Assembly (NCBI RefSeq): GCF_013114825.1
Contig: NZ_JAAVLX010000003.1
Location: forward strand, 434,001 to 498,000
Direction: 5' to 3'
Source of the DNA: Bradyrhizobium australiense
GTDB lineage: Bacteria; Pseudomonadota; Alphaproteobacteria; Rhizobiales; Xanthobacteraceae
DNA length: 64,000 bases
The notes beneath the pieces were generated by a model. It did no database searches. It saw only the letters and a program-made list of their open reading frames with translations, and had not been told where the DNA came from. Shown here one piece after another: positions 41,379 through 43,760 of the stretch. The position numbers and the translations under genes are program-made. How positions within the stretch are numbered: position 1 is the stretch's first letter; the number at the start of each line of letters is the position of its first letter.

Positions 41379-42470
41379 TCACCCCGGCATCGATCCAACA
41401 TAAGCCGAACTCGGCCGGATCAGCCGGCCGCCACGCTGCTGCTCCCGGGCATGCGCGGTCCAGCCCGCCGCGCGGGCCACGGCAAAGATCGGCGTAAATG
41501 CCTGGCGCGGAATTTTCAGCGCGTCGAGCAGGATTGCGGTGAAGAACTCCACATTGGTGTCGAGCGGGCGATCGGGATTTTTCCGCCGCAGCGCGTCGCG
41601 TATGTAGGCTTCGACCTCACCTGCGAACGCCAGATCGGTGCCGCCTCCTGCAAGCCGCTCGATCGCGCCCTTGAGCACATCGGCACGAGGATCGCGGACG
41701 CGATAGACGCGGTGACCGAAACCCATCAGCCGCTCGCCGCGGGCCAGCGCACTGTCGACCCACGGCTTGATCCGCTCGGTCGAGCCGATCGCATCCAGCA
41801 TCTCCAGCACCGGTTCAGGGGCGCCGCCATGCAATGGCCCGGTCAGGGCGCAATAGCCGGCGGTGACGGCTGCGAATAAATCCGCCTGCGTCGAGGCCAC
41901 CACGCGCGTCGTGAAGGTCGACGCGTTCATGCCGTGATCGCAGACCGTGACGAAATAGGTGTCCAGCGCAGTGATCTCGGGCGTTTCGGCCTTGCGGCCG
42001 CGCAGCATCGACAGTGTGTCGGCAGCATGGCCAAGGGTCGGATCGGGCGCGATCGGATCATCGCCTTTGGCCCGTTGCAGCAGCGCGCCGGCAATCACAG
42101 GCAACGCGCCGAGGATGGTTGCCTCATGCTCAAGTCCGTTCTCCCCGCGCAAGCCGGCGACGGCAGCGCGAAAGCCGTCGATAATCGACAAGCCACGCGT
42201 TGCCGGCAGCAATTCGGGTAGTCGTGCGAATGCGCGTTCCCGCGCAGCGCCGAGCCTTGAGCGCACATTGGCTTCGCTGAGGGAGATTCCCATTGCCGAG
42301 TTCCACAGGCGCGCGGTCACGCCTTCGAAACTCGATTTTCCCGCGAAGTCGCCGATCCGCTCGCCGGTGATAATTAGTTCGCCGCCCTCGCCGTCGACAT
42401 GGCTGAGCGCGGTTTCGGCGGCCGGAATGCCGTCGAGGCCGATCGGGGTCTTCGAAATCTGCATGTTCAT
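41379..42470 (-). CDS. Citrate synthase-type protein (CitA-like)
   Basis: The 363-residue product has the citrate synthase folds. GPLHGGAPEPVLEML holds the first catalytic His, FGHRVYRVRDPRADVLK the second and the Arg region, and NVEFFTAILLDALKIP the third site, where the usual Asp is Glu. The end has AHAREQQRGGRLIRPSSAYVG. It should join acetyl-CoA to a keto acid such as oxaloacetate or propionyl-type substrate, so citrate versus methylcitrate is open. The start at 42470 has AAGGAGAG seven bases before. It is divergent from a second synthase with an HTH domain. Confidence 0.88.
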   Translation of the reverse strand: MNMQISKTPIGLDGIPAAETALSHVDGEGGELIITGERIGDFAGKSSFEGVTARLWNSAMGISLSEANVRSRLGAARERAFARLPELLPATRGLSIIDGFRAAVAGLRGENGLEHEATILGALPVIAGALLQRAKGDDPIAPDPTLGHAADTLSMLRGRKAETPEITALDTYFVTVCDHGMNASTFTTRVVASTQADLFAAVTAGYCALTGPLHGGAPEPVLEMLDAIGSTERIKPWVDSALARGERLMGFGHRVYRVRDPRADVLKGAIERLAGGGTDLAFAGEVEAYIRDALRRKNPDRPLDTNVEFFTAILLDALKIPRQAFTPIFAVARAAGWTAHAREQQRGGRLIRPSSAYVGSMPG

Positions 42471-42542
42471 GGGGCTCTCCTTTGCTTGCGGCAAAGGTCG
42501 GGCCTCTCGACAGATTGATCAATCTTGATTACGTAAATCAAT
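42471..42542. promoter_or_regulatory. Divergent operator region of the citrate synthase pair
   Basis: In 72 bases I see three dyads: CCTTTGC-N5-GCAAAGG (42479-42497), which overlaps the Shine-Dalgarno of the minus-strand gene; the perfect 12-base palindrome GATTGATCAATC (42513-42524); and TTGATT-N5-AATCAA (42525-42541), which ends one base before the plus-strand ATG. The latter two share TTGAT half-sites. No Shine-Dalgarno precedes the plus-strand ATG. Confidence 0.6.
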
Positions 42543-43760
42543 ATGAAAAAATCCGCCGGACTTTACCTCTCGGCGCGCGAGGCCTCCGCCGAACTCGCTA
42601 TCTCCCAAGCGACGCTTTATGCCTATGTCAGCCGTGGCTTGATCCGCTCGGAGCCGTCTGACGATTCTCGCAGCCACCGCTACCGGGCCGAGGACGTCCG
42701 CACGCTAAAAGAGCGCCGCGCGCCGTCGCCGGAGCCGCGCGGCCTGCGCAGTTTCGACGCCGATCTGCCGGTGATGGATTCCGCCGTCGGAACCATCACC
42801 GAGGACGGCGCGATCTATCGCGGCGTCAACTGCATCGATCTCGCCGAGCGCGACACGCTCGAACATGCCGCGACGCTGCTGTGGGACGTGACCGGCGTCG
42901 ATCCCTTCGATCAGAACAATTGCCCCGTTGTGTCAGACGAAATGCGCGCAGTGGCCGAGGCCGCACGTGGAGCTAATGCGATCGATCGCGCCATCGCAGT
43001 GCTGGCGCTCGCCGCCAGGGCTGACCCAAGGGCCTTCACCCGCGCCGACGAAGAGCGCGCGATGCTAGGTGGCCGCATCATGCGCCTCGTAGTCGCGACC
43101 ATGCTGAACACCAAACCCTCGGCAAAGCCGCTTCACGTGCAGATCGCACGCGTCTGGGCGCCAGAGCACAAGCAAGCGGCCGATTTGATCCGCCGCGCGC
43201 TGGTGCTGCTGGCGGATCATGAGCTGAATGCCTCGACCTTCACCGTGCGCTGCGCGGCCTCGACCGGGCTAAATCTCTACGATGCCATGATCGCCGGTCT
43301 CGTCGCGCTGAAAGGCCCGAAGCATGGCGGCGCCGGCGTGCTGGCGGCGCAGCTCCTGAAGACGCTCGCAGATGGCGAGGTCGCCCCTCTGATCCGCGAG
43401 CGCGTCGCGCTCGGCGAACACTTTGCCGGCTTTGGCCATGGAGTCTACAAGCATGGCGATCCCCGCGCGCGGGCGCTTCTGGAGGCGCTGGCGCGCTCGG
43501 GCGCTGACCGCAAGCTCACCCACGAAATCCCGGAGCGGATCGCCGAAGCGACCGGCGAGTTCGTCAATATCGATTATGCCCTTGCGGTGCTGGTGCACAC
43601 GCTCGGCCTGCCGCCCGGCCATGAACTGGTGCTGTTTTCCATGGCGCGAACCGTGGGATGGATCGCGCATGCCTGCGAGCAATTGCGCCATGGCCGGCTG
43701 ATCCGGCCCCGCGCGCGCTATGTTGGTCCCGCACCGGGACGGAGCCCGGTCCGGGCCTGA
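42543..43760 (+). CDS. Citrate synthase-type protein with N-terminal HTH domain
   Basis: Residues about 7-55 form a MerR/excisionase-like helix-turn-helix: YLSAREASAELAISQATLYAYVSRGLIRSEPSDDSRSHRYRAEDV. The rest of the 405 residues is a citrate synthase fold with GPKHGGAGVLAAQLL (His), FGHGVYKHGDPRARALLE (second His) and VNIDYALAVLVHTLGLP with the third-site Asp kept. The fusion suggests that enzyme, ligand and DNA binding may be linked. The neighbouring palindromes would be natural targets. It is divergent from the other synthase. The end overlaps dedA by 43 bases. Confidence 0.88.
   Translation: MKKSAGLYLSAREASAELAISQATLYAYVSRGLIRSEPSDDSRSHRYRAEDVRTLKERRAPSPEPRGLRSFDADLPVMDSAVGTITEDGAIYRGVNCIDLAERDTLEHAATLLWDVTGVDPFDQNNCPVVSDEMRAVAEAARGANAIDRAIAVLALAARADPRAFTRADEERAMLGGRIMRLVVATMLNTKPSAKPLHVQIARVWAPEHKQAADLIRRALVLLADHELNASTFTVRCAASTGLNLYDAMIAGLVALKGPKHGGAGVLAAQLLKTLADGEVAPLIRERVALGEHFAGFGHGVYKHGDPRARALLEALARSGADRKLTHEIPERIAEATGEFVNIDYALAVLVHTLGLPPGHELVLFSMARTVGWIAHACEQLRHGRLIRPRARYVGPAPGRSPVRA

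Follow-up and report, generated by a model that had tools for sequence, protein, structure and literature searches.

The window analysed here (64,000 nucleotides, G000:C13:434001-498000, from a 7.4 Mb genome whose nearest named loci are those of Bradyrhizobium) encodes a citrate synthase-like protein with a predicted N-terminal MerR-type helix-turn-helix, hereafter HTH-CS, which, judging from sequence comparison, is likely a one-component regulator that senses through its (methyl)citrate synthase domain and represses both its own gene and a divergent gene of acyl-CoA or tricarboxylate metabolism. Comparison across genomes shows the fusion itself, a conserved operator, a tight tie between this operator and the HTH-CS gene, divergent partners that change and a conserved catalytic triad. 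Since the same short site is found before the HTH-CS gene in distantly related bacteria, and often beside genes of citrate, CoA or propionate metabolism, HTH-CS is very probably a gene switch.

The site lies in a gap of 72 bases (42471-42542), read directly from the sequence, between two diverging genes whose products both match PF00285, in agreement with the initial annotation, which had called them citrate synthase-type genes. That annotation had also described three dyads in the gap, and all three are indeed present where it had placed them, as perfect inverted repeats, the third one ending one base short of the ATG at 42543 as it had noted (Table 1). When inverted repeats are counted as perfect ones with arms of at least 6 bases and loops of at most 8, the gap never reaches three in 3000 dinucleotide shuffles (mean of 0.09 per shuffle), and of 5000 stretches of 72 bases drawn at random from the window, those overlapping the gap left in, 14 contain at least three. 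The three dyads are, however, not equivalent. Indeed, comparison of orthologous gaps allowed us to pinpoint one constant unit of 23 bases upstream of HTH-CS genes, TCAATnTTGAT-N7-ATCAA, made of the third dyad and the right half of the second one and referred to below as the operator.

Table 1. Features of the divergent citrate synthase locus, with positions counted from the first base of the window.
Feature	Position	Strand	Basis
Divergent CitA-like citrate synthase lacking an HTH; probable co-target	41379..42470	-	PF00285, PRK12350
First dyad, CCTTTGC-N5-GCAAAGG (5-base loop)	42479-42485 / 42491-42497	.	
Putative -35 of HTH-CS, TCGACA	42507..42512	+	from sequence; stretch conserved in Bradyrhizobium-type loci
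Second dyad extended, AGATTGATCAATCT, 7 bp per side	42512-42525	.	
Second dyad, palindrome GATTGATCAATC	42513-42524	.	direct read
Putative -35 of divergent synthase, TTGATC, overlapping the TCAAT arm of the operator	42517..42522	-	inferred
Candidate operator, TCAAT-n-TTGAT-N7-ATCAA (here TCAATCTTGATTACGTAAATCAA)	42519..42541	+	upstream conservation, genome counts
Inverted repeat TTGAT-N7-ATCAA, conserved core of the operator, containing the third dyad	42525..42541	+	spacer conservation
Third dyad, TTGATT-N5-AATCAA	42525-42530 / 42536-42541	.	direct read
Putative -10 of HTH-CS, TACGTA, inside the operator	42530..42535	+	inferred
HTH-CS, 405 aa, citrate synthase-like with predicted N-terminal MerR-type helix-turn-helix; proposed regulator	42543..43760	+	PF00285, model
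Predicted DNA-binding domain of HTH-CS, residues 1-60	42543..42722	+	conservation, fold matches
His261, catalytic residue 1	43323..43325	+	His in 99% of 94
His299, catalytic residue 2	43437..43439	+	96% of 94
Asp344, catalytic residue 3	43572..43574	+	98% of 94

Residues 74-390 of HTH-CS match PF00285 with 211.7 bits for a cut-off of 27, and the head scores below the cut-offs of the Pfam models HTH_17 (24.1 bits for 27), MerR_1 (20.6 for 21.6) and MerR (14.9 for 28.2). None of the NCBIfam cut-offs for synthases of the CitA, CitZ and PrpC types is exceeded by HTH-CS, the best score being obtained with TIGR01800 (163.8 for 421.3) and that with PRK12350 amounting to 153 bits for a cut-off of 332. 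The divergent synthase reaches 435.2 with PRK12350 and 324.6 bits with PF00285, and matches no second Pfam family. In the head, the segment TLYAYVSRG (residues 24-32) has each of its residues conserved at 88-100% among 94 non-redundant proteins. The full model of HTH-CS shows two domains connected by a low-confidence linker (residues 61-77). Modelled alone (mean pLDDT of 78.5), the head matches Pukovnik Xis, BldC, RacA, SoxR and HiNmlR, with Foldseek E values of at least 0.03 and Z scores that do not exceed 7.7, all of them thus below 8 and some unrelated proteins being found at similar Z. PrpC enzymes (2-methylcitrate synthase) head the list of PDB matches obtained with the full model, other citrate synthases following close behind; among the best 60 of the 75 matched sequences, no solved structure spans the head, the matched stretches beginning at residue 54 at the earliest.

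The catalytic residues His261, His299 and Asp344 occupy positions that we take to be those of His274, His320 and Asp375 of pig citrate synthase. As the complete His-His-Asp triad is kept in 89 of the 94 non-redundant proteins, that of the window included, these proteins may be working enzymes. Among the best 30 of 64 plasmid records, such proteins are named, where annotated, "citrate synthase family protein", "citrate/2-methylcitrate synthase" or "citrate synthase".

Conservation of the operator was assessed upstream of the 94 non-redundant genes, which derive from 173 proteins longer than 300 residues thinned at 85% identity (L001-L004 and L177-L188 excluded); the loci sampled comprise 100 stretches from the genome samples and 43 named loci, with start codons projected from homology and proteins cut at stops. 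Over its 15 fixed positions, the operator is exact at 64 of the 94 loci and has at most one mismatch at 84, as expected of a trigger enzyme or autoregulator, whose own promoter region should hold such a conserved site; with up to two and up to three mismatches, the numbers rise to 87 and 91, respectively. When no more than one mismatch was allowed, the count was zero for 200 permuted motifs, for 20 shuffles of the upstream regions and for three windows placed inside the genes. When two mismatches were tolerated, a single one of the 200 permutations, presumably a near-copy of the operator motif, reached 65 of 94, and with three the maximum was 85. Furthermore, the 7-base spacer is the sole best one at 85 of the 94 loci.

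In the 37 Bradyrhizobium-type loci, window included, the operator is exact in 34 and has one mismatch in 3. The second dyad combines a lineage-specific left half with a right half that is part of the operator: its left half, TTGATCAA, is found in 36 of these 37 loci versus 41 of the 94 non-redundant ones. The alignment of orthologous gaps that had been suggested along with the dyads gave a mixed answer, the TTGAT sites being kept whereas the CCTTTGC dyad is exact in 3 of the 37 Bradyrhizobium-type loci and in 1 of the 94 overall. The distance from the operator to the ATG, measured for sites with at most one mismatch, is 1 base in the window and in many Bradyrhizobium and up to 45 bases elsewhere, and since the distance to the projected start varies, the operator is not a start signal.

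Searches at E <= 1e-60 recovered HTH-CS from 128 of the 146 genus genomes. At E <= 1e-45, the family sample gave 27 out of 248 genomes and the order sample 63 out of 297, and at E <= 1e-40 the class and phylum samples gave 34 out of 337 and 46 out of 398, respectively; these samples overlap, and the search scores top candidates only, so that absences are upper limits. In the genome of the window, the exact operator motif occurs once. Within the genus, the exact operator is present in 124 of the 128 genomes with HTH-CS versus none of the 18 without a found HTH-CS, several of which are incomplete, and within the order in 49 of the 63 HTH-CS genomes versus 5 of the 234 others (E 1e-45); kinship inflates both sets of counts, for which reason the figure from the 94 non-redundant loci is the fairer one. 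Listings compared by eye place 125 of 127 genus sites at 5 bases or fewer from the HTH-CS match, and 48 of 55 exact sites of the order sample next to HTH-CS. One genus genome has two HTH-CS copies and two sites, and the reversed pattern, used as a control, has no match in the 146 genus genomes. HTH-CS without an exact site is seen in four genus genomes (G014, G033, G050 and G135); in G014 it is a gene fragment only, and G033 and G050 are represented among the loci by L053 and L052, respectively, whose operators have one mismatch. The initial annotation had proposed that the fused synthase acts on its own promoter region. This is strongly supported by comparison, as the site accompanies HTH-CS throughout the phylum sample and does not occur in any of the 18 genus genomes in which no HTH-CS was found, and we predict with high confidence that HTH-CS binds the operator.

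Three of the 94 loci, L071, L134 and L171, are devoid of the operator (6-7 mismatches), and all three have broken triads. In L071 (Stutzerimonas), the triad is replaced by Ile-His-Ile and VSRGL by VGRKN, a changed recognition segment, and the triads of L134 and L171 read His-Leu-Asn and His-Gln-Asp, respectively. Their branch lengths in a quick tree are 1.59 for L071, the sole one flagged as long, 1.03 for L134 and 0.73 for L171 (not unusual). L098 and L099 carry a His-Asn-Asp triad, with Asn for the second His, and yet have an exact operator, so that operator and triad are not strictly tied. As a side observation, the upstream regions of L071, L072, L074 and L176, three of them named Pseudomonas or Stutzerimonas and the triad, as read in L071, being broken, have no operator but a common sequence, TAAATCTGTAC; perhaps the regulator of these loci has been re-specified.

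Exact sites were also found away from HTH-CS genes. The genome of L134 (G601) has one at L223:4903-4925, about 57 bases before an MmgE/PrpD ORF and about 9 kb from its operator-less, broken-triad HTH-CS, and G592, a genome with HTH-CS, has a second one at L224:3332-3354, 10 bases before an ORF of the AbrB family (PF05145), ORF starts being uncurated in both cases. The AbrB-family ORF is possibly a second target of HTH-CS, and both sites are leads only for a wider regulon. The extra exact sites of the Bradyrhizobium genomes G122 and G017 were considered as regulon members and are taken as chance, no convincing target having been recognised among the nearby ORFs.

A CitA-like synthase stands divergent to HTH-CS at 67 of the 94 loci, and 23 of the 27 loci without it keep the operator; four loci with a divergent CitA (L070, L076, L143 and L151) have 3 mismatches in it. 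Neighbours were assigned by tblastn in 29 larger stretches, of which 26 had been selected for the lack of a recognised divergent CitA and 3, plasmid records, by name. The divergent gene encodes a CoA-transferase of family III in 11 of them (five tested, all confirmed by Pfam), PrpB in 4 (two tested, above the NCBIfam cut-off), AcnD in 1 (1774.8 for 1419.85 bits), a DUF2332 protein in 3 (two tested, confirmed by Pfam), a 2-hydroxyacid dehydrogenase in 3 (two at 36% identity to the first), a methyltransferase in 1, an HMGL-like (homocitrate synthase-like) protein in 1 (Deinococcus plasmid, L221:5950-6000) and a CitA-like synthase in 1 (Agrobacterium fabrum C58 plasmid), and tblastn identified no divergent neighbour in 4. 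A TctA tricarboxylate transporter follows the 2-hydroxyacid dehydrogenase in L199, and all four prpB loci have a citrate synthase-family gene further along (PrpC in the two tested), two of them also having an acnD relative (85-86% identical). In the DUF2332 (PF10094) loci L193, L195 and L218, the operator is located between the DUF2332 and HTH-CS genes. The operator version of the Deinococcus plasmid reads as one with a 6-base spacer, and the presence of HTH-CS on this plasmid means that the family is not confined to Pseudomonadota.

In the quick tree, for which stops were masked as X, the 94 HTH-CS rows split from 6 CitA-like and 2 PrpC rows with a branch support of 99. Nine labels, covering the partners and both outgroups, need 16 changes on this tree for a minimum of 8, and the CoA-transferase label alone needs 4. 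The five prp/acnD rows form a single clade and hence count as one event. As the operator is constant while the neighbour changes, the site stays with HTH-CS. In all likelihood the divergent gene is also a target of HTH-CS, a prediction that the initial annotation had not made.

Regarding promoter elements, the putative -10 of HTH-CS reads TATGTA, TATATA or TACATA in many relatives, and if TCGACA and TACGTA are used, the HTH-CS transcript would be nearly leaderless, with a start on the ATG or immediately ahead of it. When 87 sites are taken together, the highest-scoring match to TATAAT on the HTH-CS strand falls at operator positions 14-19 (3.9-4.0 of 6), a peak located 3 bases to the right of TACGTA and partly made of the operator's own letters; with a -35 added, at a spacer of 17 bases only, four -10 positions score alike (5.3-5.8 of 12). 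On the divergent strand, where the TCAAT arm reads TTGA and could serve as the -35, the best TATAAT is weak (2.2-2.4 of 6) and stands at the normal 17-base spacer, with or without CitA.

We propose that an HTH-CS dimer, joined via its citrate synthase domain, would bind the operator through its predicted MerR/Xis-type winged helices, with one head per arm of TTGAT-N7-ATCAA and the centres of the arms 12 bases apart. The operator would cover the HTH-CS promoter region as well as the presumed -35 of the divergent CitA-like synthase, and because it lies over both promoter regions, binding would most likely repress both genes; if TTGATC is the divergent -35, repression is favoured over activation. 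Net repression by HTH-CS thus appears probable. It is known that the cleft of citrate synthase closes on oxaloacetate. With the synthase domain as a sensor, oxaloacetate, acetyl- or propionyl-CoA, or citrate or 2-methylcitrate would close the active-site cleft, and this closure would shift the way in which the two heads are held, leading to release of the DNA. The ligand is rather likely to be a compound that (methyl)citrate synthase consumes or forms. CoA-ester sensing, which the initial annotation had raised as a possibility, gains in likelihood from the divergent CoA-transferase, prpB and acnD genes of other lineages, the prp/acnD ones being a single clade. An inverted-repeat model accounts for TTGAT-N7-ATCAA and leaves the extra TCAAT arm unexplained. 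For the family as a whole, we lean towards an intact (2-methyl)citrate synthase site that would be used as a direct sensor of oxaloacetate and acyl-CoA, or of the product of their condensation, with a fixed operator of 15 positions rewired to varied divergent acyl-CoA or tricarboxylate genes.

HTH-CS could instead be an activator in the manner of MerR, which, once bound to its ligand, would twist the DNA so that RNA polymerase uses the divergent promoter. The matches of the head model with SoxR, HiNmlR and BldC and the position of the operator among candidate promoter elements would fit this behaviour. MerR activation, however, uses an over-long promoter spacer of 19-20 bases, whereas the best divergent-strand TATAAT, though weak, has a normal one, and we regard activation as unlikely. 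A reading that comes closer to repression by a sensing synthase domain, and that is compatible with it rather than exclusive, is that of a bifunctional trigger enzyme, namely a working (methyl)citrate synthase that represses its operon at low substrate, as PutA does. We consider it a possible, less favoured option: the triad kept in most HTH-CS proteins and the PrpC enzymes heading the structural matches argue for it, and the two prp clusters tested, which have a prpC of their own, argue against it. A further point against it may come from Caulobacter crescentus, whose two extra synthase genes, CitB and CitC, have consecutive tags (CCNA_03757/03758) in PMC7083601; in that study, an E. coli gltA mutant was complemented by CitB but not by CitC (CCNA_03758). 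As a lead only, CitB and CitC look like a pair of a CitA-like synthase and an HTH-CS, and the failure of CitC to complement would be expected if it were an HTH-CS. A term search of the main text of PMC7083601 gave no helix-turn-helix or HTH, nor a DNA-binding domain in CitC.

Two other explanations were weighed. That another transcription factor binds the conserved site, the synthase HTH having another role or none, is very unlikely, as the site tracks HTH-CS whatever the neighbour, is nearly unique in each genome and does not occur in the 18 genomes of the genus for which HTH-CS was not found. Likewise, it is highly improbable that the repeats amount to no more than promoter elements, or to an RNA hairpin covering the ribosome site of the divergent synthase. 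One arm of the first dyad does overlap the Shine-Dalgarno sequence (AAAGGAG) of that synthase, and a stem of at least 6 over it (42477-42500) is present in 25 out of 50 leaders of the Bradyrhizobium type, shuffling giving a mean of 1.1. These 50 leaders are nevertheless close relatives, 2 of the 7 present in the non-redundant set have the stem, and RNAalifold, run over 22 leaders, gave four other pairs and no covariation; the varying distance between operator and projected start further speaks against a start signal. The hairpin on the divergent leader was for these reasons, namely conservation in close relatives only and lack of covariation, rejected as the main feature, and it may exist as a local one.

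The preferred reading, a repressor that senses through its synthase domain, has parallels in known systems. PutA carries a ribbon-helix-helix and a proline dehydrogenase on one chain and represses its operon at low substrate (proline). HTH-CS resembles trigger enzymes of this type in having a catabolic-enzyme fold, an N-terminal DNA-binding domain and a site in a shared divergent promoter region, and differs in its parts, as it combines a citrate synthase fold with a predicted head of the MerR/Xis type. With SoxR, BmrR, HiNmlR and BldC of the MerR superfamily it shares an inverted-repeat operator and, as its model suggests, may share a similar N-terminal winged helix, but its sensor is a whole citrate synthase domain and, as far as the putative promoters of the divergent strand tell, no over-long spacer is seen. 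PRK12350 (CitA-like) proteins and PrpC have the same PF00285 fold and catalytic positions, whereas HTH-CS stands apart from the rows of both in the tree and has the extra head. Finally, PrpR-type propionate regulators, of an unrelated architecture (sigma54 activator or other), are akin to HTH-CS in function, since the latter probably controls the 2-methylcitrate cycle in the one prpB/acnD clade. HTH-CS may thus be viewed as an enzyme-derived one-component regulator of the PutA kind whose parts are newly combined. The literature searched gave no account of a citrate synthase with a fused HTH acting as a regulator, and since this literature is mostly open-access, a prior description is possible; term searches in the main texts of PMC4344238, PMC10888616, PMC3973600 and PMC12542777 returned none, and the main text of PMC5343134 mentions neither PrpR, PrpQ nor citrate synthase.

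Trigger enzymes are a known concept, and a phylum-wide operator for an annotated citrate synthase would surprise specialists. If these proteins are regulators, many enzyme annotations and metabolic models are wrong. The proposed function would mean that a fold of central metabolism has come to serve as a sensor whose operator is both defined and portable, and would hint at how several lineages control genes of acyl-CoA, tricarboxylate and 2-methylcitrate metabolism. It would also give a functional lead for the uncharacterised DUF2332 in acyl-CoA or tricarboxylate metabolism, and provide an off-the-shelf biosensor with which levels of acyl-CoA or citrate could be followed.
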